A DNA stretch of 38,013 bases from Candidatus Hydrogenedentota bacterium (GTDB lineage Bacteria; Hydrogenedentota; Hydrogenedentia; Hydrogenedentales; CAILVY01). Under the pieces are notes generated by a model. It was not told the DNA's origin. It searched no databases and saw nothing but the letters and a program-made list of their open reading frames with translations. The stretch covers positions 1 to 38,013 of the forward strand of contig CAILVY010000127.1 in assembly GCA_903837785.1 (NCBI GenBank), read 5' to 3'. A program made the position numbers and the translations under genes. Below, piece after piece: positions 8,290-24,576 of the stretch (positions are counted from its first letter, which is position 1; the number at the start of each line of letters is the position of its first letter).

Positions 8290-9375
8290 TCACACAGCTC
8301 CCGGCTCATAAAAACTCGTGTCCTCCACCGCGACGGCTTCGATGGCGAAGTCGCCCGCGCGCAAGACCACTCCCGGCTTCAACGTGACCGTCCCGTCCAT
8401 GGAGGAACTAACCTCCGGGCGAAGCGGGCTCTGTTCACTGGGGCAATACACGTAACGCGCCCCGCGGACCCGGATATGCCCCCACAGCACGGCCGGGTCA
8501 TCCACCAGCGGAATCGTCAGATCGCATCCCCAACCGATGCTGGCCTCGCGGACGATCATCACATAGCGGTGCTGGTCCTTCAGCGCGTCCGTGCACAGGA
8601 ACGTCACCGCATCAACCAGCATGGGATTGGCCAGGTTCCGCTGCACCTGCGCGTAGAGCGTCAGCCCGTTCAGGTTGCGCCCCAGGTCCCGTCCCAACAA
8701 CACCGGCGTGCGGTCCGGCAGCGCATGCCAGGCCGCCTTGGGCAGCGGCTGTTCCTGCAGCCACGTGCCGCCGCTGCTTCCCGCGCCATCCTGGCCGCAG
8801 TCCACCACTTTGAGGGTTTCCTGCCCGGCGTCCATGGCCACCCGGAAGGCGCCGTGAACGCGGCTGATCAGGCGGGATTCGTCCGGCATCGCCTGCACCT
8901 CGGCATGCTGCCGCTGCATCCTGCGCAGCACGATGTCGTTGAGGGTGGGTGTGTACACGCCCTTCGGCTGGTTGCCCCGGGTGGACGGGAGTTGATCATG
9001 GCGGGCGCGCCCCACCTGCAAAGTCCGTTTGGCAAACAGGAAAACATCCTGCGACCCGAAGGGTGAGGTTGTCCGCAGGAGAAGCCGGCCGCATTCCTGG
9101 CGCTGCAGTTCTTCCGATTCATAGATCCGGGCGCACGCCTTGCAGATCCCGAGCGCCGCGTCGCAGCAGGCCAGATGGATGGGCTGCCGGCCGCAGTGGG
9201 GACAGCGGAATCGCTCTTCCCGGACGGTGACCTCATGATTGCAGCAGGGGCAGTACTCGAGTTGCGCGCCGGCATTCTGGATGATGGTAACGTTCCGAAC
9301 CAGGCCGTCGTTCACCTGCAGCGCAGGACCAAACGCGTCTCGCTTGATTTCGCTCTCGTCGCCGATACCGGTCAC
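8290..9375 (-). CDS. Zinc-ribbon protein with tandem FHA-like domains
   Basis: The GTG at 9375 gives 361 residues. It is chosen because GGAGGGGAGG lies six bases upstream; a TTG at 9393 in the same frame would place that site inside the gene. Residues 42-81 hold paired cysteines (Cys42/Cys45, Cys58/Cys61, Cys70/Cys71, Cys78/Cys81), a double zinc-ribbon or RING-like cluster. An FHA-like domain follows: LQVGRA, a loop insertion, NDIVL, then ISRVHG (the Ser-x-x-His signature) and GTWLQEQPL. A second, degenerate FHA-like unit (ASIGWGCDLTIPL, then LKPGVVLRAGDFAIEA) closes the protein. FHA domains bind phosphothreonine, so this may read signals from the downstream kinase. No membrane segment is seen. 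The insertion and the missing Asn after Ser-x-x-His make phosphate binding uncertain. Confidence 0.7.
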   Translation of the reverse strand: MTGIGDESEIKRDAFGPALQVNDGLVRNVTIIQNAGAQLEYCPCCNHEVTVREERFRCPHCGRQPIHLACCDAALGICKACARIYESEELQRQECGRLLLRTTSPFGSQDVFLFAKRTLQVGRARHDQLPSTRGNQPKGVYTPTLNDIVLRRMQRQHAEVQAMPDESRLISRVHGAFRVAMDAGQETLKVVDCGQDGAGSSGGTWLQEQPLPKAAWHALPDRTPVLLGRDLGRNLNGLTLYAQVQRNLANPMLVDAVTFLCTDALKDQHRYVMIVREASIGWGCDLTIPLVDDPAVLWGHIRVRGARYVYCPSEQSPLRPEVSSSMDGTVTLKPGVVLRAGDFAIEAVAVEDTSFYEPGAV

Positions 9376-9406
9376 GCAGCGCCTCCCCTCCAATGCAGCC
9401 CAAACC

Positions 9407-10318
9407 TCATTTCGCCAGATCGTCGATCCGGGTACATGCCGAGAAGTTGTACACAGCAGCCAAACCCAAGATAAAGAGCATAGTAAGCAAACCCCGAATT
9501 GAGGTCAAGTTAATGTTCAGAATGAGCAGGGCGAGTACTAGATCAGCCAGCACAAACCCCAGCAACATCAATAGGTTCCAGAGGTTAGACTCCCACCGCG
9601 TCACCCGCGAGACGGCAAAGGAGAACAGGACCGGCAGTATCAGGCACGCCAGGATGAAGAGGATGACGCGACCCAGGAGGCCCGTGTCGCGAAGTTGGGA
9701 TTCAACGTAGCCCGGAGACGCCAGATTCTTGCTCAGGCCTTCCTGTACTGTGAATTCTGCCAGTTTCTCTCCGCCGGGAACCCGTAGCATCGCCACATTC
9801 ATCAAGAGGCCGGCCTGCGCGCCGGTCTGGGCAAACTCGGGCACGGAGCCGTAGACCACGGCATCCACCCCGAGCCGCTTGCCGGCCTTGAGGGCCGCAT
9901 CAGCGCCAGTGACCTCGCGTGGATCGAAGCGGATCCGCTGCCAAAACTTGGCGAAGACGCCTTTGTCCCGGACATTGTAGCGCCCGCTTTCGGACAGTTT
10001 CCGTCGCAGGCTGTCCGTGACATACGAGGTGTAATCCCGCTCAAAGGGAAGGACTGCCACCCGGTAGATGGACTTCTCGTGGGGAAGTTTCTCGAAAGCC
10101 TGGGCCACGGCGGCGTCCGCCACCGCGCGCCGCACGGAATCCAGGCTCTTCTTCTCCGGACCCAGCACGTACCACGCATAGGAGAGGACCGAAAACGTCA
10201 GGAGAATCGTGCCGATGCGTGTCGTCGCCAGCGTGAAGGTCCCCTTGATGAGGTCGCTGAACACCTGGTACGTGAAAAACGCCCAGACGCCTCCGCCAAG
10301 GTCACTTTTCTTCTTCAT
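9407..10318 (-). CDS. Polytopic membrane protein with CsgG/LpoB-like central domain
   Basis: A 303-residue protein that I do not recognise as a named family. Membrane segments are expected at about 33-52, 216-236, 246-268 and 275-292. The soluble middle (about 80-200) begins IYRVAVLPFERDYTSYV, continues with SLRRKLSESGRYNVRDKGVF and includes GKRLGVDAVVYGSV. This pattern (a beta strand ending in LPF, a helix whose end reads 'sgrynV.d', then 'GadavvyG.v') is shared by the CsgG, LpoB and FlgT-like periplasmic or outer-membrane domains. One N-terminal helix would place this domain in the periplasm, which would fit a role linking the cytoplasmic system to the envelope (inference). The start is well supported by GGAGG eight bases upstream. 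The next gene begins 31 bases after the stop, which suggests co-transcription. Confidence 0.65.
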   Translation of the reverse strand: MKKKSDLGGGVWAFFTYQVFSDLIKGTFTLATTRIGTILLTFSVLSYAWYVLGPEKKSLDSVRRAVADAAVAQAFEKLPHEKSIYRVAVLPFERDYTSYVTDSLRRKLSESGRYNVRDKGVFAKFWQRIRFDPREVTGADAALKAGKRLGVDAVVYGSVPEFAQTGAQAGLLMNVAMLRVPGGEKLAEFTVQEGLSKNLASPGYVESQLRDTGLLGRVILFILACLILPVLFSFAVSRVTRWESNLWNLLMLLGFVLADLVLALLILNINLTSIRGLLTMLFILGLAAVYNFSACTRIDDLAK

Positions 10319-10426: not shown

Positions 10427-11980
10427 TTATCGTCCGAATGGAAGACGGAACTTCTTGCCCAGTTGCCTGAGACGTTCATCCGCGTCATGCACCCCCAGTT
10501 TGGCCGCCTGACGATACCACTTCATTGCTTCTTCCCTGTCTTTGGGCACTCCATCGCCCTCCTCGAAACACACACCCAAATTGAATAGCGCCACGGCATG
10601 ACCCTGCTCTGCCGCTTTGCGATACCACATCGCGGCGCTGGCTTTGTTCTGAGGAACACCTTCTCCATTATCCAGACACATTGCGAGTGCATTTTGAGCA
10701 CCAGCCAATCCTTGGTCTGCCGCTTTGCGATACCATTTCACTGCTTCCTGCTTGTCCACCGAGACTCCTTCGCCCCGGGCATACATCGTGCCGAGCCACC
10801 ATTGACCCATCGAATCCCCCAGGTCCGCAGCCTTTCGAAGCCATCGTAACGCTTCTTCTGGGTTCTTGTCCGTGGAACCGTCGCGCAGATAATACTCGCC
10901 CACTTCACACAGAGCCTTCGGTTCATCCTGTTCTGCCGCCTTGCGATACCACTGGATGGCCTCTTCCTTGTCTTCGGCTACCCCCCAGCCCCTGTCATAA
11001 CATCTGCCAAGTTCCACCTGTGCCAAGGCATCTCCCTGCTCAGCAGCTTTCCTGTACCACATTGCCGCGCTTGACTTGTCTTGTTGCAGCCCGATTCCGA
11101 CGAAATAAAGGGTACCCAGCGCACGCTGTGCCATTGCGAATCCCTGCTCCGCGGCTACCAGCCAATGAGAGATAGCTTTCCCATAGTCCTGAGTTACCCC
11201 CACACCCTCCAGGTAGCAGTCACCCACGAGATACTGCCCTTCAGGCCATCCGCGCATGGCCGCCCAACTCCACTGCGGGAGACGTGTCTCCTGAACCTTT
11301 TCTAGATACTCGCGCGTATTATTGCCAAAACGAAGACAACGGCGGCATTCCTCAATATCGAATAAGACAAGCCGCCGAACTTCATCTTCGTTATCTTCAG
11401 GATCATCTTCTGTGCCCTTGTCTGCCTGAGCGCGGTCACGAGGATCCCACACATTCTGTTGAGACTCTCTTGTCAAGCTTGAGACCTCGGAGTCCTCCTC
11501 TGCTTGTTTGGATGTCTTCCTTGCCACGCATTGCTTGCACAAATACGATCCTTCATCCTGGTGTTCAACATGAATGTAACTGCGGCCACATTCGCGACAC
11601 ATGAACCAGTCCGCGCCCTGAACGACCTTGCTGCAAATTGGGCACAACTCGCCGTGGACTGTCACGGAAGAAACGGTCGGGGGGGCAACATTGACATAAA
11701 TGCTTCCCCCCACGGTTGCTCCCTCCGCGTGTTGATGATGAGTCTCAATCCTGTTGCCGCCAATAATGTCGCCTCCTGCACGCATCAGACCGTCTTGATT
11801 GAGCAAGCCTTTAGGCGCTGTGGCACCAGCGCCGCAAGCAGGACACAGCTTCCAATGCGCCTGCAGTTCGCATCCGCACGAATCGCACGACTTTCTCTCA
11901 AGCACCGGGGTGCCGCACTCAGGACAAGACTTCCATTCCGCCAGGATCTCCGCATGGCATGCAGGATTCATGCACTTCAT
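10427..11980 (-). CDS. Zinc-ribbon and Sel1-repeat protein
   Basis: A 517-residue, probably cytoplasmic protein. The N-terminus has consecutive zinc ribbons: CMNPAC with WKSCPECG, then CDSCG with WKLCPACG. A Gly/His-containing linker and a further ribbon (CPICS, CRECG, CKQC) follow. Residues from about 247 to 500 form seven Sel1-like helical repeats of 36 residues, recognisable by AEQG..AQ..LG..Y..G.GV..D...A..WYRKA. Sel1 repeats form a superhelical scaffold for protein-protein contacts, and in bacteria they often occur in signalling or adaptor proteins. The first ribbon pair shares the WK.CP.CG pattern with the end of the upstream SPFH protein, so they may bind the same partner or each other. 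The start has GGAG about 11 bases upstream. The gene is 140 bases after the SPFH gene and 108 bases before the next one. Confidence 0.85.
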   Translation of the reverse strand: MKCMNPACHAEILAEWKSCPECGTPVLERKSCDSCGCELQAHWKLCPACGAGATAPKGLLNQDGLMRAGGDIIGGNRIETHHQHAEGATVGGSIYVNVAPPTVSSVTVHGELCPICSKVVQGADWFMCRECGRSYIHVEHQDEGSYLCKQCVARKTSKQAEEDSEVSSLTRESQQNVWDPRDRAQADKGTEDDPEDNEDEVRRLVLFDIEECRRCLRFGNNTREYLEKVQETRLPQWSWAAMRGWPEGQYLVGDCYLEGVGVTQDYGKAISHWLVAAEQGFAMAQRALGTLYFVGIGLQQDKSSAAMWYRKAAEQGDALAQVELGRCYDRGWGVAEDKEEAIQWYRKAAEQDEPKALCEVGEYYLRDGSTDKNPEEALRWLRKAADLGDSMGQWWLGTMYARGEGVSVDKQEAVKWYRKAADQGLAGAQNALAMCLDNGEGVPQNKASAAMWYRKAAEQGHAVALFNLGVCFEEGDGVPKDREEAMKWYRQAAKLGVHDADERLRQLGKKFRLPFGR

Positions 11981-12097: not shown

Positions 12098-12122
12098 GAA
12101 GTCCTGCCGCGGCAGGGACTTC
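12098..12122 (-). repeat. Near-perfect palindrome at the 3' end of the SPFH gene
   Basis: The 25-base element (GAAGTC, then CTGCC paired with GGCAG, then GACTTC, with one unpaired base) overlaps the SPFH stop codon. It would form a strong hairpin in the minus-strand transcript. No T-tract follows, so it is not a classical terminator. It may protect the upstream message end or attenuate readthrough into the Sel1 gene. Confidence 0.45.
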
Positions 12123-13710
12123 ACTTGGGCGCACTGTCCAGGGCCTTGCCGCAGAAGGGACAGGCTTTCCAGGTCTTCTGGACCCCTTTTCCACAACCCG
12201 GGCACACTGCATCGCACTCGGCAGCCGGGCCGGAAGCGGGCGGTACGTTGACGATGTGGACGCTGGGCTGAACGGGCGAGCCCGATGCCGGGGAAGCGCC
12301 GCTGAGGGGTACCTGCTGTTTTGACGCCTGCATCATCTCGCCGGACAGGCGCGTCATCTGCTGTTGATGCAGCCGCTCGCGGTCTTCGGCCTGCTTCATG
12401 GCGTCCATGGAATGCTTGGCGGCTTCGGCCGTGAAGACCGACCCCGCGACGGCATCGCCGCGATCCAGGGCGCGCATCTTGGTTTGTTCTTCGAGCATCT
12501 TCTGAAGGGTGGCCGCGTCGACCGCCCCGGCCGCGAGCCCCTGGCCGATGATCCGTTCGATCATGCCGAGCTGCACGGCCATCTGCTGCATCTGCATGTC
12601 CATCTGGAGGCGGTTGCTCTCCTGCTGGTTTCGAAGCAGGGTGAGCTGGTGTTCCTGCTCTTCGCGCATCCGCTCGCGCTTGTTCTGCTGAATCATTTCG
12701 AAATCGAGCCGGTCCTGCTCGCGATCAAAGAGCTCCTTGTCCTTGATCAGCGCCAGTTCGTCGCGCTTGCGATCCATCGCAATGCGGTCCTGTTCGCGGT
12801 CCACGGCCAGCTGCGCCAGTTTCAGGTCGGTGTCAAGCTGTGCGATCTCGGCATTCACCTCGGCCAGGCGCAGGCGCATCGCCGCCTGCTTCTCCTCGGC
12901 GGAGTGTTTCGCATCCAGCCGGATGCCTTGAATCTCGAGTTCACCCGCCTCAACCCGCTTGCGCTGCTCCAGGGCCAACTGCTGCGCGGTGCGCACCGCC
13001 TCGGCCTTGCGCTCGAGTTCGCGGAGCATACGGGCCTGGGTGAAGTCCTTCTCCTCCTCCTCGAGCTGCTTGGCTCGCCGCGCAATCTCGAGTTTCTCCT
13101 GCTCGGTCAGGCCCCAGACCACGGTGATGTTGTCGACGCGGATGCTCCAGGCGCCGAGGGTCTGGCGAAGCTCCTCGCGCGCGCGGTCCTCGAGTTCGCG
13201 GAGAAACGCCACGTTGCCGCGAATCTCGTCGTGCAGTTTTCCGGCCACGGCGGGCTGGAAGATCCGGGACGCGAGTTCCGGCTTGATTCGGTTCAGGAGG
13301 TCGAAGGTGGCGATGGAGTTGTCGCGTCCCAGCATGGCGGTGAGCCGCGCGGCGTCATCCGTGAGGACGGAGCATCGCACGGTGGTCTGGCCGCTGATCA
13401 TCTGCTGGTCCATGGTCCACATGTTCACGTTGAACATGAGGTCGAACGGGAGCGTGGAAACCACGAAGGCGCGGTAGTCCGTCCCGGTGGAAAACAGCCG
13501 CTTGAAGGTCGGCAGGTTGCGGTCGGCCCAGTTGCCCAGCGCGCGCCGCTCCTCGGTAATGACTTCTTCCGCCTTGCCGTCCTTGATGAGCACCGCGGCC
13601 TCGGACGGCCCGACAACCAGGTCGTTTCTCAGCCAGGTCCGGATCTCCTGCGGTGTCAGCATGCGCGCAATCGTGCGTTCCCCGTCTGTCATCCAAGCGC
13701 CGCTCGTCAT
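12121..13710 (-). CDS. SPFH-domain protein with long coiled coil and C-terminal zinc ribbon
   Basis: The ATG at 13710 gives 529 residues. It is preferred over the ATG at 13725 because GGAGG lies eight bases before it. Residues about 15-215 read as an SPFH (band-7/stomatin-like) domain, with strand-rich segments such as FVVSTLPFDLMFNVNMW and a helix-strand ending WSIRVDNITVVW. A highly charged coiled coil spans about 215-400 (EQEKLEIARRAKQLEEEEK and many DREQDR-type heptads). A Met/Gln-rich region and a Pro/Ser linker follow. The C-terminus is a zinc ribbon, CPGCG...WKACPFCG. The layout resembles the Bacillus YdjI type, which works with PspA at membranes. SPFH proteins form large membrane-bound rings or platforms. 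No hydrophobic anchor is seen, so membrane binding would need the SPFH edge or partners. Immediately upstream is the ESCRT-III-like gene (82 bases). Confidence 0.8.
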   Translation of the reverse strand: MTSGAWMTDGERTIARMLTPQEIRTWLRNDLVVGPSEAAVLIKDGKAEEVITEERRALGNWADRNLPTFKRLFSTGTDYRAFVVSTLPFDLMFNVNMWTMDQQMISGQTTVRCSVLTDDAARLTAMLGRDNSIATFDLLNRIKPELASRIFQPAVAGKLHDEIRGNVAFLRELEDRAREELRQTLGAWSIRVDNITVVWGLTEQEKLEIARRAKQLEEEEKDFTQARMLRELERKAEAVRTAQQLALEQRKRVEAGELEIQGIRLDAKHSAEEKQAAMRLRLAEVNAEIAQLDTDLKLAQLAVDREQDRIAMDRKRDELALIKDKELFDREQDRLDFEMIQQNKRERMREEQEHQLTLLRNQQESNRLQMDMQMQQMAVQLGMIERIIGQGLAAGAVDAATLQKMLEEQTKMRALDRGDAVAGSVFTAEAAKHSMDAMKQAEDRERLHQQQMTRLSGEMMQASKQQVPLSGASPASGSPVQPSVHIVNVPPASGPAAECDAVCPGCGKGVQKTWKACPFCGKALDSAPK

Positions 13711-13792
13711 ACCTGCATCCTCCATTCTTTGTCGCTGTTCTCGACGTGAGTCCTCTTGATGTGAATTGAATTAGTCCGCGCCGGGAACGCGC

Positions 13793-14371
13793 CTACCGGC
13801 CGTCCCCCAGTTCCCGTTCGATCTGCTTCAGCCCTGCGGCAACTTCCTTGTCGAGCACGCGTTCGCCCGCAATCAGGCGATCCAATTCAGCGTCGCTCAT
13901 GAGGTCATCCCCCGCCACGTCCATCGAGCCGAGGGTTTCTGTGGTCATGTCCAGGAAGACGGCCATGCGCTGTTCCATCGTCTGCGCCTGCACCATCGCC
14001 CGCTCGAACTCCTGTTGGGTCTTGGTCAGGTCGGTGGCCCCAAACACCTCCGCTATCGACTGCGACACGGCGGTCATGGACTTGGCAAAGGCGGCGTAGG
14101 ATTCCGCCTGGTTCTTCATCTGTGACGCGGTCTCGATGGAGAGCAGCTGCCGCTCCATCTGGCGGCGGCTGGCGATGCACCGCTTAAGGGTCTGCCGGAG
14201 AAAGGCCTCCTGGTCCGCCGCGCCCAACTGCCGGGCCTTCTTCGCCTTCTCCAGATAGCCTTGTTCGTTCTTGGCCAGGGCCTTGATCTGCCGTTGAATC
14301 TGCGCGATCCCCTGGCGCACCTGCACGTCTCGCTCGATCCGCCGCTGTTCCTTGCTCTTGAAGAGTGGCAT
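13793..14371 (-). CDS. ESCRT-III (Snf7/CHMP)-like protein
   Basis: A 192-residue, almost wholly helical protein. It starts MPLFKSKEQRRIERDVQ, a short hydrophobic-basic N-terminus like the MGLFGK start of eukaryotic CHMP proteins. A long helix (10-48) with IQRQIKALAKNE leads into KKARQLG, followed by a second long helix with LRQTLKRCIASRRQMERQL. This matches the CHMP helical-hairpin pattern (.RQI..L...E...., K.A...G, L....+.R..). Later helices include TKTQQEFERAMVQAQTME. The C-terminus is acidic, with DDLMSDAELDRLI, then a final helix (KQIERELGD) that could act as an MIT-interacting motif. ESCRT-III proteins polymerise on membranes and are recycled by Vps4. Length and order agree with that family. 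PspA/Vipp1 is the alternative, but the next upstream gene is a Vps4-like ATPase. The ATG at 14371 is chosen because the frame further upstream is antisense-like shadow inside the ATPase gene. Confidence 0.72.
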   Translation of the reverse strand: MPLFKSKEQRRIERDVQVRQGIAQIQRQIKALAKNEQGYLEKAKKARQLGAADQEAFLRQTLKRCIASRRQMERQLLSIETASQMKNQAESYAAFAKSMTAVSQSIAEVFGATDLTKTQQEFERAMVQAQTMEQRMAVFLDMTTETLGSMDVAGDDLMSDAELDRLIAGERVLDKEVAAGLKQIERELGDGR

Positions 14372-14396
14372 GATGTGCTGTTCTCCCTGTCCCGGT

Positions 14397-15605
14397 TCAA
14401 ATCCGGGGGTCTGTGGCCCATTGCGCATATCTGAAGGCCGATTCGGGATTGGTCTTGGGCCGAATCCGCTGCAATGCTTCCTCAAATTCCTTCTGTTCAA
14501 TGGGGCGTATCCGCAACTCGCCGCCGCTCCGGTTCGCGTCCGCGCTTGCATTGAGCAGGTGCGGATTGGCGTTGAGCGCCATGATCTGCGTCGCCTCGGC
14601 GCAGAGGCGCTCCAGGTCGCGCCCGCTGTACCCGTCGGTCTTCCGGACGAGTTCCTCCCGCGGCACGCAGCAGGAAAACCCGTTGCGCTCCATGTGAATG
14701 CCCAGGATGTCCGCGCGCGCGGCGGCATCCGGCAGGGGCACCAGCACGAGTTTGCCAAAGCGCGAGAGTATGGCCGGATCCAGGTCCCACGGGGCATTCG
14801 TGGCGCCCATGACATAGAGGAATCCGCTCTTGTTCTTGCTTTCCAGGCCGTCCATCTCGGACAACAGCGTGGACAGGACCCGTTTCTCCGCGCCGTCGAT
14901 ATTCCCCGAGCGCGCGGGGGCCAGGGCATCCACCTCGTCAAAGAAGAGCAGCGCCGGGGCATGCTTGCGCGCCTCGGCGAAGAGGGCCGACATCAGCTTG
15001 GAGGATTCCCCGAAGTACTTGGACAGGAGGCCGCTCGTCTTCACGTTGAAGAACGTGGCGGACAGTTCGTTGGAGGCCGCGGCGGCCAGCAAGGTCTTGC
15101 CCGTGCCCGGCGGGCCGTAGAGCAGGATGTTCTGCGACGTCTTGAGCCGGACGCCCCGCGGCAGCCGGGCGGTGGACAACGCGTAGGCCGCGCGGATATC
15201 GCGCTTCGTGCCGTCGAGTCCGCCGATCTGTTCCCACGTGACGGTCGTCCGCTGAACGAGGTCCAGCACGGCCGAGGAGAATTCCTCCTTCTGTTCCTGC
15301 TCGGCGTTCGAACCGCGGGCCGTTTCGCGCGGGCGGCCCCGGAATTCCGCGCGTTCCTGCGCCGTGATGGCGACCGCTTCGCCGGCGCGCAGGCGCTTCG
15401 AGAGCTCCAGGTACTGCCGGGCCTTCTCCAGGCGCTGCCGTTGCACCGACGGGCTCACCGCGTCGGGCACCAGTTCCTTCATGATGCGCGCACACCGCTC
15501 GTATTCCTGGGCGGCCGCCTCGCGCTGCCCTTCCTGATACAAGGATTGGGCGCGCGTGAGCGCGGTTTCCAGCTGCGCATGCAGACCCGCCGAAATGTCC
15601 ACCAT
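14397..15605 (-). CDS. Vps4-like AAA ATPase with MIT-like N-terminal domain
   Basis: A 402-residue protein. Residues about 5-76 form a predicted three-helix bundle (LETALTRAQSLYQEGQ, AAAQEYERCARIMKELV, QRLEKARQYLELSKRL) that reads like an MIT domain, the ESCRT-III-binding module of Vps4. The AAA domain has Walker A GPPGTGKT (164-171), pore loop SKYFGES, Walker B LLFFDEVDAL with Asp223 and Glu224, sensor-1 Asn270 in MGATNAPWDLD, Arg282 in AILSRFGK (position of an arginine finger) and GYSGRDLERLC (sensor 2). The end, EFEEALQRIRPK followed by AFRYAQWA, resembles the C-terminal helix of Vps4 and other meiotic-clade AAA proteins. It is expected to be a hexameric unfoldase acting on the ESCRT-III-like products encoded on either side. 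It starts three bases after the preceding stop and ends 25 bases before the next start. Other meiotic-clade AAA types (katanin-, spastin-like) are the main alternative. Confidence 0.82.
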   Translation of the reverse strand: MVDISAGLHAQLETALTRAQSLYQEGQREAAAQEYERCARIMKELVPDAVSPSVQRQRLEKARQYLELSKRLRAGEAVAITAQERAEFRGRPRETARGSNAEQEQKEEFSSAVLDLVQRTTVTWEQIGGLDGTKRDIRAAYALSTARLPRGVRLKTSQNILLYGPPGTGKTLLAAAASNELSATFFNVKTSGLLSKYFGESSKLMSALFAEARKHAPALLFFDEVDALAPARSGNIDGAEKRVLSTLLSEMDGLESKNKSGFLYVMGATNAPWDLDPAILSRFGKLVLVPLPDAAARADILGIHMERNGFSCCVPREELVRKTDGYSGRDLERLCAEATQIMALNANPHLLNASADANRSGGELRIRPIEQKEFEEALQRIRPKTNPESAFRYAQWATDPRI

Positions 15606-15608
15606 GGA

Positions 15609-16202
15609 TTACTCCGCGTCCCGATCTTTGCGATCCAGCATTTCGGACACTTCGGAAAACTTTTCTTCAATGGCCCCGGATTCCGAGGCCTGCTCCATCT
15701 TCTCCACAAGGGCCAGCACATCTTCGTCTTCATCGAGGGTCCGCGTGGCGCGCGGGTCCGCTTCGATGACGTCGATCAGCGCCTGGATCTTGTCCCGGGT
15801 AACCGTTTCGTCCACCACGGCGCCGGTCAGCAGGCCGTCCAGTTCTTCCGCGCTCAAGCGGGAGATGACGCTCCAGACGCCGCTCTCCTGAAGCTTCTTC
15901 TTGTTGCGCTGCACCGACGAGAGCCGGTTCACCACGCGCAGTTGCTTCGAGATGATGTTGGCGCGTCCGTCCAGTTCCTTCCCCTGTTCGTCTATCTCCT
16001 TGATCTTCCTCGCCACGACAATCCGCTGGCGCTGCGACTTCTCCGTGGCACCCTGTTGGAAGAGGCGCTTCTTCTCGTCTTCCGTCTTTTGAAGACGGGC
16101 CAGCACCCGGCGCTCCTCCTCCTCGAGACGTATGCGTTCCGCATCGAGCTCCGCCGAGGTCAAGTCGGTAACCGTCCGCTTTCTGGTGAATGGCCACTTC
16201 AT
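15609..16202 (-). CDS. Coiled-coil protein, possible second ESCRT-III-like subunit
   Basis: A 197-residue, highly charged helical protein with a start like the other subunit (MKWPFTRKRT, basic with aromatic residues). A long helix (17-48) ends at LFQQGA. A second long helix (54-104) follows, containing IVVARKIKEIDEQGKELD, then RANIISKQLRVVNRL. From memory, CHMP2 proteins have a similar RANI segment after the helical hairpin. Residues 110-150 are shorter helices, and the C-terminus is acidic with EDEDVLALVEKMEQ, which could serve as an MIT-interacting motif. The similarity is of pattern and helix order only, so a generic coiled-coil adaptor remains possible. Its ATG overlaps the TGA of the subtilase gene by four bases, and the ATPase gene starts three bases after its stop. 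The three are therefore probably translated together. Confidence 0.55.
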   Translation of the reverse strand: MKWPFTRKRTVTDLTSAELDAERIRLEEEERRVLARLQKTEDEKKRLFQQGATEKSQRQRIVVARKIKEIDEQGKELDGRANIISKQLRVVNRLSSVQRNKKKLQESGVWSVISRLSAEELDGLLTGAVVDETVTRDKIQALIDVIEADPRATRTLDEDEDVLALVEKMEQASESGAIEEKFSEVSEMLDRKDRDAE

Positions 16203-19075
16203 ACCTGTTCTCTCCTACGCAGTGTTAAGCCTACCCCTGAGATGGTTTCCAGTACGAAGTCGCCGGACTCCGCAACCAGTTGTTCCATGGCGGCCCGAAT
16301 TACGGTTTCGGAAAAGGGAAGCGCCTCCGTCATGGCGCTCAACGTGACATAGCGTGACCCCTCCATCTGCGCCCCAAGCGCCGCCAGACACCGCACCAGG
16401 GTGTCTCGCGGGAGTTCCCCACGGACCAGCGGCGCACAGAATGCCGCCCGGCCGTCCGTGGGATCAAGCCAGCACGCATCCGGTCCCGGACCCAGCAGGA
16501 TGACGGACACGTCCGGCGAGGCGAATTTCGCCACCGGAGAATTCTCGTGCGGCGCAACATATTCGATCGCGTCCGGCGTCCACCCCGAAGGCGAGAAGAT
16601 CGCGAGAACGATGGGCTGCTTCTGTTCCCGGCCGCGCTTCGCCGCGTCCATCAGCCGTTCGGACAGCTCCGCGGCGCTTCTGGGCCGGGTCGCATCACCC
16701 TTGGCGAACGTATCCTCCCACCGGAACCAGAACTTCGCCTCCACCGAGACCGAGACGGCCTTCTTGCCCAAGACCCCTTTGGGCACCTTCACCGCGTACT
16801 GCAGCGACCGGTTCAGGGGAAGGTTCCGCGCGAACTCCGGCGCGTAGCGGGGATGCCTCAGGATGGCCGACTGCTCATTCTGTTCCCGCAGAAACTCGAA
16901 GGTGCCCCGAAACGGAACCGGCTTGGCCGAGATCGGGTGGGGCAGTTCCTGGGTTTCCGCGAATTGGGAGCGCACCCGTTCGATGAACGCGGACTCCAAC
17001 GCCAGCAGCGAGATCAGGGACAATGGGGCCGCGCCGGGCGCGAGGCCCTCAAGGAGTCCCGGGGCGGCAGTGGCGGCGAAGCCGGGGACAGGCATGGCCG
17101 AAAGGACGGAAGCTTGTTCCGTATCGCGGTATTCCGCGCCCCGGATCCCGCTTCGGTGATCCTTGCAGTGGTGGCGGGACCGGAGGTTCCAGCACCGGTC
17201 GCAGATGGGCGCGCCACAGTCTTCCGCCTCGCATTGATGGGCGGGAACCGATTTCAGGCGCATGCCGCAGAGGCCGCACTCGATCGTGAACGCGGCCGGC
17301 GGACGGGCCGGCGCTTCCTCCATCGCCTCCTCGCCCGCCTCCAGTTCGCGCCGCTCGATCCACTCGTCGATGGTCGCACGGCGAAACCGCCACGTGCCGC
17401 CCACCTTGAATCCCGGCACCTTGCCTTGTCGCAAAAGCTTGTACAGGGTCACCGGCTTGAGCTTGAGGTACTTCGCAAGCTCATCCACACTCAGAATATC
17501 GTCTTGCATGGCACTATCCATTCTTCTGCCTCCGTTTTCCACGGACTCTGTCGGCACACTCTCGCGTCCGCCCCGAAGCGTGTCCGCGGCGGCGGAGAGG
17601 TTCAGCAAACCAGCGCCCTGCGCTTCCACCCGTGCGCCCGGGACCGGCGTGCAGGTCGAGCAGAGCAATTCTTTCAATTCGAGGGGAGTCAGTGTAACAC
17701 CGCCGCGCCGCGCGAGTCCCAGCAGGACCGCCGCCGCGCCGGCCACCATCGGCGCCGCCATCGACGTGCCCGAGGCCCGGGCATAGCGCACTGCGCCGGC
17801 AACCGGCGGCCACAGGCTCGGGTTGCTCTTTGACGCGCGGCAGGAAACGACCCGCTCTCCCGGTGCAAGCAGGTCCGGCTTGGGACCGGTCAGGTCCGGC
17901 GCCGTCGTCGGCCCCCGGCTGCTGAATGCACAAACGGTCCGCTGGCGGGACAGTGCCCCCACAGTGATTGCGTCCCTGGCATCCGCGGGGACCCCCAGGG
18001 TGCCGTCGTCCGGTCCGCCGTTCCCTGCCGAGACGATGACGGACACGCCCTTGCTGACCAGCGCATTGCAGACCCGCGATTCCAGCGATTGGCCGTCGGT
18101 CACGTCGCTGTCATGTCCCAGGCTGAGATTGATGATATCCGCCCCGTGGTCCAACGCCCACTGCAGCCCCGAGATGACTGAAAAGATCGTTCCGTTGCCT
18201 GTTCGGTCCAGCACGCGCGCGGAAAGGAGCGTTGCCCCCGGGGCCACGCCCAGATACCGCCCGTTCGAGGCCCGTCCCCGTCCCGCGATGATTCCCGCCA
18301 CATGGGTCCCATGCCCGCAGTAGTCGCTGCCGTCACCCTCGCCCACGAAATCCATCGCCGCTTCCACCGCGCCGGCAAGGTCGGGGTGCGTCTCGTCGAT
18401 GCCCGTATCACAGACGCAAACTCTCACTCCCGCGCCGCACGCCTCCAGGCCAATCCGCTGCCGGATGCCCCGGGGGTCGATTACCGGCACGCTTTCCGCG
18501 AGCTGGGCACGAACCGCATCGGGATCCGGAACGATCAGCCGGACCGGCCGTTCCGCGTCATAGACGGCCGCCACCCCTTCCAGGGAGGCAAGCGGTTCGA
18601 TCAGTTCCACGAGCGGCGGCACCTGCAGCGGCACCAGTTGAAACGCTTCAAAGAAACGTTCGGGGGATTCGCCGCTGCCGTAGGGAACGGCGCCAATCGG
18701 ATAGCCCATCCCGGCGGCGAGGGACGCAACTTCGGCAACCCCAGGGGAGGACGCGGCCACAAAGACGCGCGGCCAGTACCGAGTGGGACAATAGGCCGCA
18801 AGGTCGCGGATACAGGCCTCCGTCTTTATCTCCCGCTGCTTCCATCGGCGAAGCGTTTCCTCCAGCGCCTGGGCCACCTGCGCCTCGACGCGCTGCACGT
18901 ATTCCGGCAGCTGTGGCGCGGCGCCCGGGTCTGCCTGGAATCGCGCCCGAACCGAGTCGTCAAGCCCTTCCTGCAACCGCTCACGATAGCGTTGCACGGT
19001 CTGCTCCAGGGAGAAGGACGCATCGATATAGGCGCGCACCTCGCCCTGCCGTTGCACTTGGTCATCAGCCTTCAT
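16199..19075 (-). CDS. Cytoplasmic subtilisin-like protease fused to helix-turn-helix, zinc-finger and C-terminal winged-helix-like region
   Basis: The ATG at 19075 gives 958 residues; the frame is open 17 codons further, but this start overlaps the upstream TGA by 11 bases, as expected for coupled genes. An N-terminal region of about 200 residues precedes an S8 peptidase domain with Asp223 (VCDTGIDETHPDL), His255 (GHGTHVAG), oxyanion Asn352 (SAGNGG) and Ser438 (SGTSMAAPM). All catalytic residues are intact. No signal peptide is visible, so the protease should be intracellular. From residue 519 comes an excisionase/MerR-like helix-turn-helix (ILSVDELAKYLKLKPVTLY, ending WRFRRATIDEWIERRE). A Cys/His cluster (CGLCG, CEAEDCG, CDRCW, HHCKDH) follows, then about 260 residues that I cannot assign, ending in a winged-helix-like stretch. 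An internal ribosome site before Met519 suggests a second product. In the cluster it could process envelope or ESCRT-like substrates (inference). Confidence 0.85.
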   Translation of the reverse strand: MKADDQVQRQGEVRAYIDASFSLEQTVQRYRERLQEGLDDSVRARFQADPGAAPQLPEYVQRVEAQVAQALEETLRRWKQREIKTEACIRDLAAYCPTRYWPRVFVAASSPGVAEVASLAAGMGYPIGAVPYGSGESPERFFEAFQLVPLQVPPLVELIEPLASLEGVAAVYDAERPVRLIVPDPDAVRAQLAESVPVIDPRGIRQRIGLEACGAGVRVCVCDTGIDETHPDLAGAVEAAMDFVGEGDGSDYCGHGTHVAGIIAGRGRASNGRYLGVAPGATLLSARVLDRTGNGTIFSVISGLQWALDHGADIINLSLGHDSDVTDGQSLESRVCNALVSKGVSVIVSAGNGGPDDGTLGVPADARDAITVGALSRQRTVCAFSSRGPTTAPDLTGPKPDLLAPGERVVSCRASKSNPSLWPPVAGAVRYARASGTSMAAPMVAGAAAVLLGLARRGGVTLTPLELKELLCSTCTPVPGARVEAQGAGLLNLSAAADTLRGGRESVPTESVENGGRRMDSAMQDDILSVDELAKYLKLKPVTLYKLLRQGKVPGFKVGGTWRFRRATIDEWIERRELEAGEEAMEEAPARPPAAFTIECGLCGMRLKSVPAHQCEAEDCGAPICDRCWNLRSRHHCKDHRSGIRGAEYRDTEQASVLSAMPVPGFAATAAPGLLEGLAPGAAPLSLISLLALESAFIERVRSQFAETQELPHPISAKPVPFRGTFEFLREQNEQSAILRHPRYAPEFARNLPLNRSLQYAVKVPKGVLGKKAVSVSVEAKFWFRWEDTFAKGDATRPRSAAELSERLMDAAKRGREQKQPIVLAIFSPSGWTPDAIEYVAPHENSPVAKFASPDVSVILLGPGPDACWLDPTDGRAAFCAPLVRGELPRDTLVRCLAALGAQMEGSRYVTLSAMTEALPFSETVIRAAMEQLVAESGDFVLETISGVGLTLRRREQV
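17519..17533 (-). promoter_or_regulatory. Internal ribosome-binding site and ATG at the protease / HTH junction
   Basis: In the minus-strand message GGAGG (17533-17529) stands seven bases before an in-frame ATG (17521-17519). The spacing is ideal and the position is exactly between the subtilase and the helix-turn-helix module. A separate 440-residue HTH/zinc-finger protein could be made from here, in addition to the full fusion. Confidence 0.5.
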
Positions 19076-19412
19076 GTGCGGAGACTCCGGCGTCCTCGGT
19101 GATCGCCAGCACGCACTCCAGCGCAAGCAACTCCGCCAGCTCCCCCGACCCCAGCACCGCCCGCACTATCGGATGATCCAGGACAGACGGAAGCTCCGCC
19201 CACCCCGACGGAAGCCCTGAAGCGGCGACACCCGATTCAAGCCCCGGGAAATGCGGCAACCCGCCCAGCGCGCGGATCAGCGCCGTTACCGAGGACAGCT
19301 CTACCAGCACCGGCACCCCGCAGCCCGCGTTCAGTTTCTCCCGCGCTACAGCCGAAACCCGCAACTTAGCAGATTCTAGCCTATATTGTATTTTGCGCTG
19401 TGAATTATCCAT
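19065..19412 (-). CDS. Hypothetical protein leading the ESCRT-like operon
   Basis: A 115-residue protein that I do not recognise. It has no signal peptide and no clear membrane segment. A basic N-terminal helix (NSQRKIQYRLESAKLRVSAVAREKL) is followed by short hydrophobic helices (PVLVELSSVTALIRALG) and a C-terminal helix rich in Leu and Glu (ELAELLALECVLAI). The ATG at 19412 has AAAAGAG seven bases upstream and lies about 28 bases downstream of the predicted transcription start, so the leader is short. Its TGA overlaps the protease start by 11 bases (ATGAAGGCTGA), which implies translational coupling. A small partner, regulator or inhibitor of the protease is possible, but nothing in the sequence proves it. 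Confidence 0.6.
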   Translation of the reverse strand: MDNSQRKIQYRLESAKLRVSAVAREKLNAGCGVPVLVELSSVTALIRALGGLPHFPGLESGVAASGLPSGWAELPSVLDHPIVRAVLGSGELAELLALECVLAITEDAGVSAHEG

Positions 19413-19663: not shown

Positions 19664-21115
19664 TTACGGCGTCACCGCTTCCCACCCGCCGCCCAAGGCC
19701 TTGTACAGCGCCACGAGGTTCGTGAGCACGGTCGTTCGGCTCTGAACCATCTGGTCTTCCGCCGAGTAGAGCGAACGCTCGCCATCAAGCACGTTAAGGA
19801 AGTCGACGAGGCCCTTGCTGTACAGTTCGTTGGCCATGTTCACGGCCTGCCGGTTCGCGTCCACGGTCTGTTCGAGGGCGTGCAGGCGGGTCTGTTCGTT
19901 GGCGTAGGCTGCGAGCGCATTTTCCGTGTCTTCGAGCGCAGTCAACACGGACTTTTGAAACTGCTGCAGGGCCTGTTCCTGCCGCGCGTTCTTGAGCTTG
20001 ACGTTGCTCCAGATGTGGGCGGCATCCAGGATGGGCCAGCGCACCGACGGCCCGAAGGACCACATGCGGTTCGCGCCGGAGGTGAGCCCGTCAAGGGCGC
20101 TCGCTTCGAGGGTCAGCGAACCCGTGAGCGAGAACTTGGGGAACCATTCGGCCTGCGCCTCGCCCACGCGCGCCGTGGCGGCCGCCAGTTGGCGTTCGCT
20201 CGCAGCCACGTCGGGCCGGCGCCGCAGCAGGTCGGAGGGCAGTCCGACGGGCACCTCGGGAGGGGCCGCGGGCAGGGCGGCCTGCGCCGACAGCTCTTCG
20301 GACAGGGCGCCCGGGGCCTGGCCCAGCAGCACCCCGAGCCGATGCACCGCCAGCCGGCACGCGGTCTCGAGGTTGGGCACCTGCGATTGCGTCGAGCTCA
20401 GTTGCGCTTCCGCGCGTTTCACATCGAGCTCGCTCGTCAGTCCCGCCTGATGCCGCGCTCGGGTGAGTTCCAGGGTCTCCTGCTGGCCCTTGATGTTCTC
20501 CTCGGCGATAGTCAGGCGGTTCTGCGATCCGCGCAAGTCAAGGTAGTTCCGCGCGACTTCGGCCATGAGCGTCACGAGCACGCCGTTGCGGTTGTCGCGC
20601 GCCGCGTCGACGTCCGCCTTGGCCGCCTGTGCGGCACGGCGATTACCGCCGAAGACATCGAGTTCCCAACTGGCATCGAAGCCGGCCTGATGGAGATCCA
20701 CCTGCCGTTTGATGTCGGGTTGTCCCACGCCGGCGATGGCGCCGATCGTGCCGACGATGCCCGTGGGGCCGGCGCTTGGCTTCTTGATCTGCGCATGTTT
20801 GTACGTCGCGGAGGCCGCGCCCAACGGCAGGAAATCGGCCAGGCTGTAGCCGCGCGCGGCGCGCGCCTCGCGAACGCGCGCTTCGGCGATGCGGAGGTCG
20901 AGGTTCGAAACGACCGCGCGCTCGATGAGCGAATCGAGGGTGGGATCCTTGAAGAGAGTCCACCACTGCGCAAGTTCAACGGGCTTGGCCGCGGCACCGC
21001 CCTTCAGGGTTTCGCCCCACTGATCGGGCGCGGCGGTTTTCGGCGTGCGGTAATGCGGGCCGACGGCGCAGCCCGCCAGGAGCGCCAGCACCCAGACGCA
21101 ATGCAATGCCTTCAT
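19664..21115 (-). CDS. Outer-membrane efflux lipoprotein (TolC/NodT family)
   Basis: A 483-residue outer-membrane factor. It starts with a lipoprotein signal (VLALLAGCAVGPHY), so Cys16 should be acylated. The typical NodT-family opening AVGPHYRTP is followed by two helical-barrel repeats rich in Ala and Gln, with LDLRIAEARVREARAARG in the first and SNVKLKNARQEQALQQFQ in the second. Length and start match RND/ABC efflux outer-membrane channels. It would form a trimeric channel docked to the membrane-fusion protein encoded immediately upstream, whose stop is one base before this ATG. It is the last gene of the MarR-controlled exporter operon. Confidence 0.93.
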   Translation of the reverse strand: MKALHCVWVLALLAGCAVGPHYRTPKTAAPDQWGETLKGGAAAKPVELAQWWTLFKDPTLDSLIERAVVSNLDLRIAEARVREARAARGYSLADFLPLGAASATYKHAQIKKPSAGPTGIVGTIGAIAGVGQPDIKRQVDLHQAGFDASWELDVFGGNRRAAQAAKADVDAARDNRNGVLVTLMAEVARNYLDLRGSQNRLTIAEENIKGQQETLELTRARHQAGLTSELDVKRAEAQLSSTQSQVPNLETACRLAVHRLGVLLGQAPGALSEELSAQAALPAAPPEVPVGLPSDLLRRRPDVAASERQLAAATARVGEAQAEWFPKFSLTGSLTLEASALDGLTSGANRMWSFGPSVRWPILDAAHIWSNVKLKNARQEQALQQFQKSVLTALEDTENALAAYANEQTRLHALEQTVDANRQAVNMANELYSKGLVDFLNVLDGERSLYSAEDQMVQSRTTVLTNLVALYKALGGGWEAVTP

Positions 21116-21116
21116 C

Positions 21117-22205
21117 TCAGGCGCCCTTCCGCGCGACCGTGGATTCCGTGTCTATCTTGAGCGGCAACGCGTCGATAAACACGTCCATCTGCTGCCCGAC
21201 ATACAGCGGCAATTCGCCGCGCGTGAAGCGGTAGACCACCTGGAGCACCCGCGTGTCGACGCGCTCGCCGCTGTCGCCCGTGAGCGATTTCTTGGGGACG
21301 ACGTAGGGCTCAAAGCGCACGAATTCGAGCGCGGTCTGAATGTCGCGGTTGCCGCGCGCGAACGCCACGGCGCTCTTGCCCGACTGCACGCGCCACGCAT
21401 CGTTTTCGTCCACGTCCACGCGGATGTGCAGGGTGTCCACGTTGCCCAACAGCATGAGGGGTGTGGAGAGCGGCCCGACCTGGGCATATTCTCCCGCGCG
21501 GATCTTCACCTGAAGCACCTCGCCGTCGATGGGCGCGCGCACGACCAGGCGGTCAATCTCCGTTTGCACCGCGGCCATCTGCGCCTCGGCCGAGGCGACT
21601 TGCGCCTCCGACACGGCGACGTCCGCTTTCCACGCGCCGGCTTTGAGCAGTGCAAGCTGTGACTTTGCCTCGCCCAGCTTCGCTTCTCCCGCGTCCACGG
21701 CGAAACCGGCCTGCCGCAGTTCCTGCTCGCTGATCGCGCGCTTGTCCGTGACGCTCTGCCGCATCTGCAACTGGTTTTTCATGTCCGCGAGCGAGGCTTC
21801 GGCCTCGCGCACGCGGGCCTCGGCGGCGGGGATATCCTCGGGGCGCGGCAGGCTCTTCATGCGCGTCAACTGTTCGCGCGCAACCTTGAGCGCGGTCTGC
21901 TTCACCGCGAGTTCTCCCTGCAACTGGCGGTCATCGAGCTTGAAGAGGGGATCGCCCTGATGCACGCGGCTGCCCACGGTCACGAGCACTTCCATCACCA
22001 CGCCGGGGACCACGGCGCCCACCATGATGTTCTCGGAACTCGCTTCGATGAGCCCGGAACCGGCGACGAAGTTCTCGAAGGGCGCTTTGGCGGGCTGGGC
22101 GATCGGCTTGGAGACCGGCACCTCCCGCTGGCCGGCAATCACGGTGTAAACCCCGAAGCCAAACCCGGCCAGGGCCAGCATGGGAAGCATGTATCTGCGA
22201 ATCAT
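21117..22205 (-). CDS. HlyD/DevB-type membrane-fusion protein
   Basis: A 362-residue periplasmic adaptor with one N-terminal membrane anchor (LPMLALAGFGFGVYTVIAG). It then has a lipoyl-like half (GVVMEVLVTVGSRVHQGDPL), a long alpha hairpin (about 95-205) and the second lipoyl half (LVVRAPIDGEVLQVKIRAGE), followed by a beta-barrel domain. It links the inner-membrane ABC transporter to the outer-membrane factor. A good AGGAG lies seven bases before the ATG. The gene follows the ATPase gene by nine bases. The transported substrate cannot be inferred from the sequence. Confidence 0.9.
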   Translation of the reverse strand: MIRRYMLPMLALAGFGFGVYTVIAGQREVPVSKPIAQPAKAPFENFVAGSGLIEASSENIMVGAVVPGVVMEVLVTVGSRVHQGDPLFKLDDRQLQGELAVKQTALKVAREQLTRMKSLPRPEDIPAAEARVREAEASLADMKNQLQMRQSVTDKRAISEQELRQAGFAVDAGEAKLGEAKSQLALLKAGAWKADVAVSEAQVASAEAQMAAVQTEIDRLVVRAPIDGEVLQVKIRAGEYAQVGPLSTPLMLLGNVDTLHIRVDVDENDAWRVQSGKSAVAFARGNRDIQTALEFVRFEPYVVPKKSLTGDSGERVDTRVLQVVYRFTRGELPLYVGQQMDVFIDALPLKIDTESTVARKGA

Positions 22206-22214
22206 GGGTCGCTC

Positions 22215-22925
22215 CTATAATTCGGCGTGGGAATCCACCACTTTCTCGATGTGTCCGTCGTCCATCTTGGCGATGCGGTCCGCAAATTCGAAGATGCGCG
22301 CGTCATGCGTGACGATCACCAGAGCCCGATCCCGGCCCACGGCCACGTCCCGCAGCAGTTCCATCACTTTGTGGCCCGTGCTGTGGTCGAGCGCGCTCGT
22401 CGGCTCGTCGCACACAATCAACTTCGGTTCGTGCACCAGCGCGCGCGCAATGGCCACGCGCTGTTGCTGCCCGCCGGATAGCTGCGCGGGTAGCGAATGC
22501 TCGCGGCCCTTCAAGCCGACGCGGTCCAGGCACTCGCGCGCACGATCCAGTGCCGCCCGCCGCTTCACCCCGTTCACGAGCAGGGGCACCGCCACGTTCT
22601 CGGCGGCGGTCAGGGGCGGCAGCAGGTTGAACGCCTGGAAGACGAAGCCGATGTTCTTCCCCCGGTACTGCACGCGCTCCCGCGCGCCCATCGCGGTGAA
22701 ATCGTTGTCGAAGACATGGCAGTCGCCGCCGTCGTGGTCCAGAATCCCGGCAATGACCGAGATGAGCGTCGTCTTTCCGCAGCCGGACGGCCCCACGAGC
22801 ATCATTAATTCGCCCGCCTGCACTTCGAGGTCGATGCCGCGCAGCGCGCGCACGGCGGCGTCGCCGGACCCGTAGGTCTTCGTGACGCCCTGGCAGCGGA
22901 TCGCGATGTTGCCGTTGTTTCCCAT
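22215..22925 (-). CDS. ABC transporter ATP-binding protein (DevA/MacB/LolD-like)
   Basis: A 236-residue ATPase with all motifs: Walker A GPSGCGKTT, Q-loop FVFQAFNLLP, signature LSGGQQQR, Walker B LIVCDEPTSALD and the H-loop VTHD. This subclass powers FtsX-like permeases that drive efflux or lipoprotein release without acting as classical importers. It lies five bases after the permease stop and nine bases before the fusion-protein start, so one tripartite DevBCA-like machine is the simplest reading. Confidence 0.95.
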   Translation of the reverse strand: MGNNGNIAIRCQGVTKTYGSGDAAVRALRGIDLEVQAGELMMLVGPSGCGKTTLISVIAGILDHDGGDCHVFDNDFTAMGARERVQYRGKNIGFVFQAFNLLPPLTAAENVAVPLLVNGVKRRAALDRARECLDRVGLKGREHSLPAQLSGGQQQRVAIARALVHEPKLIVCDEPTSALDHSTGHKVMELLRDVAVGRDRALVIVTHDARIFEFADRIAKMDDGHIEKVVDSHAEL

Positions 22926-22930
22926 GCAGG

Positions 22931-24085: not shown

Positions 24086-24576
24086 GCCGCGTCCCCCCGG
24101 CGCTCAAGCGTCCGCAGGAGTTGCTCCGACACGCCGCACCACATCTGGGCGTATTCCGGGCCGATCTTCTCCAGGACCTCGACCAGCGACTGCAGCACCC
24201 GCCGCTCGAGCTGCTCCATCTGCTCCGCCACCGCGGGCGCCACCCGCACCTCCACCTCGCGCCGATCCACCCGGCTGTGTTCCCGCGTCACCAGGCCCGC
24301 GTCCACCAGCCGATCCACCGTCACCGACGCCGACGGCGCGGACACCCCCAGCGATTCAGCCAAGTCCTTGATAGTCATGGGTTCACCATGGCGAATCACC
24401 ATCAGCGCATGCATCTGCTGCAGGCTCAGCTCCTCGCAGCCAGGATGCCCATTGCCGCGGGTGGCCTGGGCGGCGTGCTGGGCCGTCAAGCGCCGACGGA
24501 GCAACAACTCGGCCGCCTGGATCATGCGGGCCTGTCCCCAGACGTTTCCGGTGCTTTCGGCGGCCAGCATTGCCAT
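24082..24576 (-). CDS. MarR-family transcriptional regulator
   Basis: A 164-residue winged-helix regulator. The helix-turn-helix reads MTIKDLAESLGVSAPSASVT, followed by the wing with DRREVEVRVA, and helices at both ends serve dimerisation. The ATG has AGGA six bases upstream and lies about 45 bases downstream of a strong promoter. MarR proteins often repress their own operon and release DNA on binding small aromatic or toxic compounds. Here it heads the exporter operon, so ligand-induced export is likely (inference). Confidence 0.93.
   Translation of the reverse strand: MAMLAAESTGNVWGQARMIQAAELLLRRRLTAQHAAQATRGNGHPGCEELSLQQMHALMVIRHGEPMTIKDLAESLGVSAPSASVTVDRLVDAGLVTREHSRVDRREVEVRVAPAVAEQMEQLERRVLQSLVEVLEKIGPEYAQMWCGVSEQLLRTLERRGDAA

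Follow-up and report, generated by a model that had tools for sequence, protein, structure and literature searches.

Can a bacterium possess an ESCRT-III (endosomal sorting complex required for transport III) filament system together with a Vps4-type ATPase of its own? The question is raised by three consecutive genes, here named C, V1 and B, located in a 38,013-nt stretch of DNA (contig CAILVY010000127.1 of assembly GCA_903837785.1, Candidatus Hydrogenedentota bacterium), which we refer to as the window. A first-pass annotation had interpreted these genes as encoding two Snf7/CHMP-like proteins around a Vps4-like AAA ATPase. Our analysis favours, with a probability of about three in four (0.74), a bacterial ESCRT-III/Vps4-type operon in which B would form polymers on the inner membrane together with C, its likely ESCRT-III-like partner, and V1 would pull subunits out.

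Organization of the C, V1 and B genes

All three are minus-strand open frames, transcribed in the order C–V1–B, and their ends coincide with those given in the first-pass annotation: C (15609..16202) encodes 197 amino acids (aa), V1 (also AAA1; 14397..15605) 402 aa and B (13793..14371) 192 aa. The gap between C and V1 is of 3 bases and that between V1 and B of 25 bases; the start of C overlaps by 4 bases the upstream gene, which encodes a 975-aa protein. The hydrophobic-basic N-termini (MPLFKSK..., MKWPFTRKR...) and the acidic tails ascribed to the small proteins are present in the sequence. As both B and C have database relatives (for B, 228 at E≤1e-3, itself included, upon searching 5.8 billion proteins; for C, 7 by single-sequence search at E≤1e-3, itself included, and 201 by profile among the 7995 best candidates scored), the three genes are not chance frames.

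For family comparisons, 94 B relatives were obtained by scanning the species-genome collection with a pattern, and the best 80 loci were kept (identified below as L plus a number; L001, which duplicates part of the window, is outside the 80-locus counts). AAA frames shorter than 300 aa or scoring below 100 bits were not counted, and profile members were selected manually with a view to spread and completeness of the frames. The ATPases of these loci fall into two groups, V1 and V2, each of which forms one clade in the trees (support 100 and 99, respectively).

Protein B and ESCRT-III

Sequence comparison indicates that B is related to ESCRT-III. Taken alone, the window protein matches Pfam Snf7 with an E-value of 2.2e-4 (21.4 bits, under the cut-off of 27.3), and it gives no Pfam match to PspA_IM30 (PF04012) at E≤1. 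Within the family, 12 of the 43 relatives that make up the B profile match Pfam Snf7 singly at E≤0.01, and the precomputed Snf7 label PF03357 is carried by 65 of 120 B homologues among those listed. When the profile was compared with 177,635 PDB sequences, eight matches were obtained at E≤0.05, all of them CHMP3, Snf7 or CHMP2A (CHMP3, E 3.7e-4); PspA and Vipp1 are absent from the 12 PDB matches at E≤5. The first-pass annotation had left it to profile searches whether either small protein matches ESCRT-III or PspA, and the B profile finds ESCRT-III.

The AlphaFold2 model of B (predicted local distance difference test score, pLDDT, 68.5) has helices at residues 7–49, 52–109, 115–152, 160–167 and 172–189, which would correspond to the helix order of ESCRT-III, and the top eight rows of a Foldseek search with this model are all ESCRT-III (E 0.066 and weaker). 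Identity between B and archaeo-eukaryotic ESCRT-III chains is 11–17% by VIA-align. The VIA-align list for B also has bMERB and BAR domains with Z equal to or higher than that of ESCRT-III, and in the same comparison C does not stand above other coiled coils; such lists fail to distinguish ESCRT-III among long helical hairpins in general, and absence from them excludes no family.

The last helix of B (residues 172–189; 13805..13858, minus strand) is a predicted MIT ligand for V1. Its register resembles that of the MIT-interacting motif MIM1 (acidic-xx-hydrophobic-xxx-hydrophobic-xx-hydrophobic), which was found in 26 of the 43 B tails (shuffled sequences: mean 5.5, maximum 14). The MIM1 consensus includes an Arg and a Lys, and the B tail is devoid of both canonical residues. 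As for the leucine motifs claimed for the small proteins, the sequence of B has a leucine/isoleucine-spaced last helix.

V1 as a Vps4-like ATPase

V1 is predicted to consist of an AAA core, an MIT-like N-domain recognised at the family level and a weakly matching Vps4_C end. The core matches Pfam AAA with an E-value of 1.5e-37 and contains the Walker A sequence GPPGTGKT, the Walker B sequence FFDEVDA and ATNAPW. The ATNxPW pattern occurs in 30/30 V1 and 38/38 V2 proteins; it is found in the four Vps4/CdvC references and in none of the six p97/FtsH references, its value as a mark of Vps4 kin is based on no more than these 10 references. In 29 of the 30 V1 proteins YFG is present as an aromatic pore loop.

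With respect to the N-terminal domain (about residues 1–80; 15366..15605, minus strand), a profile built from 17 V1 N-termini and headed by the window sequence has the MIT domain of VPS4B (2cpt) as its top PDB match (E 1.6e-5), and eight of the nine matches at E≤0.01 are VPS4A/B, the ninth being a designed repeat protein. The corresponding V2 profile (25 sequences) matches the MIT of a chitin synthase (E 0.0035) and, among designed proteins, those of Sulfolobus (0.079) and VPS4B (0.11); the V1 and V2 N-domain profiles match each other (hhalign, E 2.1e-8). The C-terminal end (residues 362–397; 14415..14522, minus strand) matches Pfam Vps4_C in the window protein at E 0.048 (14.1 bits, under the cut-off of 21.3), and in the profile set of 55 of the 68 ATPases Vps4_C is found at E≤0.1 in 49 proteins (best 3.1e-7). 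Single proteins can score higher: Vps4_C exceeds its cut-off in L036 V1 (30.7 bits) and in L067 V2, and the latter also matches MIT at E 2.8e-5 (24.6 bits, under the cut-off of 30). What the first-pass annotation had proposed for the ATPase, an MIT-like bundle and a last helix resembling that of Vps4, is borne out at the family level and not by the window protein alone, for which Pfam gives no MIT match.

A tree of the AAA domain, which had been suggested as a check, was built with 19 of the 30 V1 and 26 of the 38 V2 proteins, the reference families being Vps4, CdvC, p97 and FtsH. V1, V2, Vps4 and CdvC lie opposite p97 D1/D2 and FtsH across one branch (support 88/86, not starred); V1 groups with Vps4/CdvC and has no firm place with either FtsH or Cdc48. 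When V1 and V2 are ranked against the PDB as whole proteins, p97/Cdc48 comes out on top because its two AAA domains add up, and this ranking was not used as evidence. Scored per domain, the matches of V1 are close (p97 D2, 167.0 bits; yeast Vps4, 170.3 bits). In the window B adjoins V1, and B is near V1 in 29 of the 80 loci. According to the two criteria of Makarova et al. (2024; PMC10936438), an MIT domain or adjacent ESCRT genes, V1 would count as a Vps4. That a bacterium encodes, next to a CHMP-like protein, a dedicated ATPase of the MIT-AAA-Vps4_C type is supported.

Upon searching the window genome for V2, the best match was V1 itself. The genome encodes two other AAA proteins with long uncharacterised N-terminal regions (G000:C105:412-1143 and G000:C32:32253-32810).

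C, a second helical-hairpin protein

C is likely an ESCRT-III/CdvB-like protein, as suggested by context, profile and Foldseek comparisons. Its AlphaFold2 model contains a confident hairpin (residues 16–53/57–99; mean pLDDT 81.3), and the top Foldseek row for this model is CHMP3, with an E-value of 0.30. A profile of 60 C members has CdvB of S. islandicus as the best of all its PDB matches (E 0.023; best stretch, independent E-value 0.4). The score against CdvB is 16.8 bits, the best of 200 shuffles reaching 9.4; CHMP3 was not matched in this shuffle comparison with ESCRT-III. The MIM-like register appears in 8 of the 60 C tails, within the range of shuffled sequences (mean 4.1, maximum 11), and was not accepted as a MIM of C. 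The claim of two Snf7/CHMP-like proteins holds for B; for C it is likely, though unproven.

C is the constant partner of B, being present in 71 of the 80 loci with up to three copies each. An additional coiled-coil gene, a remote C paralogue, occurs in 24 loci (for instance L020:6311-6991 and L025:6149-6835) and sits between C and the upstream F1 module (see below) in the cases inspected. Three C paralogues stand in a row before V1, like an ESCRT-III subunit set, in L007, L012, L016, L031, L034, L035 and L036.

Weighing the ESCRT-III/Vps4 interpretation

Several of our results weigh against the interpretation of the locus as an ESCRT-III/Vps4-type operon. C, a likely ESCRT-III member, is the weaker link: the profile comparison of C with B (hhalign) is not significant, and single C members match Snf7 in 3/60 cases (E≤0.1, best 0.02), an unrelated family being matched in 4/60. 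With regard to V1, the approximately unbiased (AU) test keeps trees that place V1 with p97 (p 0.133) and, narrowly, with FtsH (p 0.056), and the NCBIfam models CDC48 and PAN score slightly above CdvC. Taking into account the AU and NCBIfam scores, the 88/86 grouping of V1 with Vps4/CdvC is not decisive.

The NCBIfam scores and the AU result for p97 would fit a PspA-type envelope-stress system that recruited an ordinary Cdc48/PAN-like unfoldase, the likeness to Vps4 being convergent; Band-7/zinc-ribbon partners, which are encoded at this locus as well, occur with PspA too, as reported in passages of Ravi et al. (2024; PMC11237479). We nevertheless consider this explanation unlikely. B matches Snf7 and not PspA_IM30, its profile retrieves CHMP/Snf7 and not PspA/Vipp1 from the PDB, and a true PspA is encoded at another locus of the genome (146.5 bits). 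The MIT profile, the ATNxPW pattern and Vps4_C are, in addition, traits of Vps4.

Gene order and distribution

The predicted system recurs in Planctomycetota, Bacillota and Sumerlaeota. By title, the 80 loci comprise 59 from Planctomycetota, 15 from Bacillota, one each from Sumerlaeota and Pseudomonadota, three named only "bacterium" and one from Inordinaticella fortuita. An archaeal or eukaryotic source is unlikely, since all of them except Inordinaticella bear bacterial titles or names. Judging by the genome titled I. fortuita strain 4B (L075), there may be a carrier in culture.

The genes follow the order C-(V1)-B-(V2) throughout, except for one locus in which a distant V2 comes first. The arrangements counted are C V1 B (17 loci), C B V2 (15), C C B V2 (11), C C B (10), C B (6), B V2 (5), C C C V1 B (5), C V1 B V2 (4), C C C V1 B V2 (2) and B alone (4). 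A long V1 or V2 frame is present in 60 of the 80 loci, and a cut or broken one in L066, L068 and L071. Distribution is sporadic: B was found in one of the 68 genomes of the phylum, that of the window, and in the class of G074 (Bacillota) 3 of 291 genomes were positive, namely G074 itself, one with a 36-residue match and one other.

The upstream F1/subtilase protein

The 975-aa protein encoded upstream of C joins a subtilase (S8) domain and an excisionase-type helix-turn-helix (HTH) domain, HTH_17 (both within 17006..19126), a zinc-finger-like stretch and, as its C-terminal part, the F1 module (16199..17005), all on the minus strand. Pfam E-values are 2.1e-56 for Peptidase_S8 and 1e-15 for HTH_17. 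F1, of 261 residues, precedes C in 54 of the 80 loci as well as in the window, and would be a conserved adaptor. It possibly ends in a winged helix, as weakly suggested by a profile of 26 of the 55 F1 modules, in which the end matches GntR at E 0.25, behind a lac repressor match at E 0.1 over another part, and by HTH matches of single members. An F1 fused to the N-terminal end of C occurs in 19 loci between L044 and L064, of which 12 bear the title Phycisphaerae or Phycisphaerales. These F1-C fusions recall those of the CHMP7 kind, CHMP7 being an ESCRT-III protein with ESCRT-II-like winged helices.

The presence of an AAA ATPase near a subtilase is shared with IetAS, and the locus might accordingly be read as an AAA plus subtilase anti-phage or conflict system of that sort, whose coiled-coil scaffolds merely resemble ESCRT-III. 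PADLOC reports IetA on V1 (E 1e-33) and IetS on the upstream subtilase (E 1e-15), and the sporadic distribution described above is in keeping with such a system. The NCBIfam scores, however, are far under the cut-offs (IteA, 110.3 against 510 bits; IteS, 41.5 against 900 bits), which corresponds to generic AAA and S8 similarity. The subtilase is, moreover, a local addition in the window, found in that copy only among 25 F1 proteins with N-terminal extensions, whereas the conserved core is made of C, V and B. As an IetAS-type system would also leave the MIT and Snf7 signals unexplained, we regard it as quite unlikely.

FtsZ and cell division

A third possibility is a Cdv-like division machine that would sever the division neck, particularly in Planctomycetota without FtsZ. 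FtsZ gave no match in the six Planctomycetota B carriers tested (genomes of L026, L012, L021, L038, L062 and L064). Archaeal CdvB and CdvC do divide cells, as stated by Makarova et al. (2024; PMC10936438). On the other hand, FtsZ is present in all six other carriers tested, that is, in the window genome, two metagenome-assembled genomes of Clostridia, I. fortuita and the genomes of L015 and L002. The distribution of the system is, besides, sporadic, and FtsZ loss is considered general in Planctomycetes, which makes a division machine very unlikely. A general replacement of FtsZ by the operon was rejected upon finding FtsZ in the window genome and the five other carriers; in Planctomycetota a role in division may exist.

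Proposed mechanism

The predicted function of the ESCRT-III/Vps4-type operon is ATP-driven remodelling of membrane-bound filaments. Beyond the gene content, all the steps are ones that we infer. The SPFH/zinc-ribbon protein encoded downstream of B, likely a membrane recruiter, would mark a membrane patch and anchor the filament; B would nucleate the filament at the marked patch, with C as co-subunit. V1 hexamers would then dock via MIT on the amphipathic tails and thread subunits through the aromatic pore loop, altering filament shape and hence the membrane, and the kinase and FHA genes could gate this remodelling. Since FtsZ is also encoded in the window genome, the physiological job would lie in envelope repair or vesicle/membrane fission and not in essential division. 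The balance tips slightly towards a complete bacterial multi-subunit ESCRT, composed of two to four ESCRT-III-type subunits (B and the paralogues of C), an F1 adaptor, an SPFH anchor, kinase/FHA control and one or two MIT-AAA-Vps4_C ATPases, with horizontal spread in Planctomycetota, Sumerlaeota and Bacillota.

Comparison with known systems

By Makarova et al. (2024; PMC10936438), many ESCRT components are described as having homologues in archaea and not in bacteria, PspA and Vipp1 being counted as ESCRT-III kin. Archaeal ESCRT loci of the Main, Halo_FHA and Meth_adaptin clades described there resemble the window in that an MIT-bearing Vps4 lies beside ESCRT-III; in different clades they carry accessory genes for kinases, FHA proteins and proteins that join SPFH, coiled coil and zinc ribbon. 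Some also have a winged-helix gene upstream of ESCRT-III, a feature that F1 may provide in the window. They differ in their host, which is bacterial here, in their ATPases, since the V1 and V2 clades are distinct from the CdvC references, and in the C family, which is not recognisably CdvB when thresholds are strict. Neither an adaptin-like protein nor CdvA or arCOG09748 was recognised in our analysis, although no systematic search for them was made.

With eukaryotic ESCRT-III/Vps4 the operon shares the MIT-AAA-Vps4_C ATPase, a CHMP3/Snf7-like B with an amphipathic tail helix and several ESCRT-III-like paralogues per system. Identity is low, however, the matches of the window proteins alone are under Pfam cut-offs, and no ubiquitin machinery was seen in the operon. 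PspA/Vipp1 systems are likewise bacterial, belong to the helical hairpin superfamily and have SPFH/zinc-ribbon partners; YdjI, a bacterial SPFH protein, is needed for PspA localisation according to Makarova et al. (PMC10936438). Unlike those systems, the operon includes a dedicated Vps4-like ATPase; B does not belong to PspA_IM30, and the genome's own PspA lies elsewhere.

As for Vps4-like ATPases in bacteria, passages of Ravi et al. (2024; PMC11237479) report that bacteria have received a Vps4-like AAA by transfer, a TPR-6TM gene having displaced snf7, as well as some bacterial Snf7/PspA-AAA operons, together with the idea of ATP-dependent Snf7/PspA remodelling. Those operons have transporter and OmpA genes and Snf7 homologues with a transmembrane (TM) segment, by which they differ from the one described here. 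The first-pass annotation had spoken of a new membrane-remodelling system; the gene pairing is supported, and the novelty has to be trimmed in view of these related cases. No description of the C-(V1)-B-(V2) operon was found in the open-licence PMC papers searched, supplementary tables being outside the search.

In passages of Liu et al. (2021; PMC8281802) it is held to be unclear whether PspF acts like Vps4 and whether Vipp1 has an equivalent ATPase. Such questions become testable in a bacterium with an operon in which a CHMP-like protein and an MIT-bearing ATPase are paired, and this operon may offer a minimal ESCRT for reconstitution. It also bears on the age of the Vps4-ESCRT-III coupling, ancestral or transferred, on Planctomycetota membrane biology, and on the ways in which bacteria cut and repair their membranes. 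If true, a complete bacterial ESCRT breaks the view of Vps4-driven ESCRT as archaeo-eukaryotic.

Origin of the cassette

On the side of the subtilase gene, a 4.7-kb block (19680..24346) matches positions 171329–176002 of G001:C171, from a genome of the same genus, with 69–70% nucleotide identity (blastn; 37 kb of G001 compared), and the HlyD-like protein within it is 73% identical at the aa level. In the stretches compared, homology stops near the cassette edge and, at its far end, at 24346. With the syntenic block, the contig can be assigned to the lineage with fair though incomplete certainty, and the simplest reading is a local, probably horizontal, acquisition of the cassette. That the contig comes from another organism and was misplaced in the bin is hardly credible: B in a single genome of 68, a reported contamination of 3.7% and same-genus homology over just 4.7 kb within the stretch compared would fit, but the synteny argues against contamination.

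Accessory genes downstream of B

Downstream of B, and on the same strand, lie genes for SPFH/Band_7, zinc-ribbon/Sel1, CsgG-like, FHA-like and Ser/Thr kinase proteins. The first (12121..13725) matches Pfam Band_7 at E 5e-5 (23.9 bits, cut-off 23.6) and has a C-terminal zinc ribbon at E 0.002, under the cut-off; its long charged middle, read by eye, likely forms a coiled coil. The second (10427..11980) combines Sel1 repeats (Pfam E 5.1e-74) with a zinc ribbon (DZR, E 3.5e-7). The CsgG/LpoB-like protein (9407..10318) matches Pfam LpoB at E 0.035, under the cut-off, and shows three C-terminal TM-like segments by hydropathy; homologues are found at L015 (CsgG, E 3.3e-5) and L002. The next gene (8290..9393) encodes a zinc-finger-like and FHA-like protein, with FHA E-values of 0.014 in the window and 0.001 in the L002 homologue, both under the cut-off. 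The last one (6211..8031) encodes a Ser/Thr protein kinase (Pfam Pkinase, E 2.9e-49) with one TM-like segment by hydropathy; its membership of the operon is less sure because it lies 258 bases downstream of the FHA gene.

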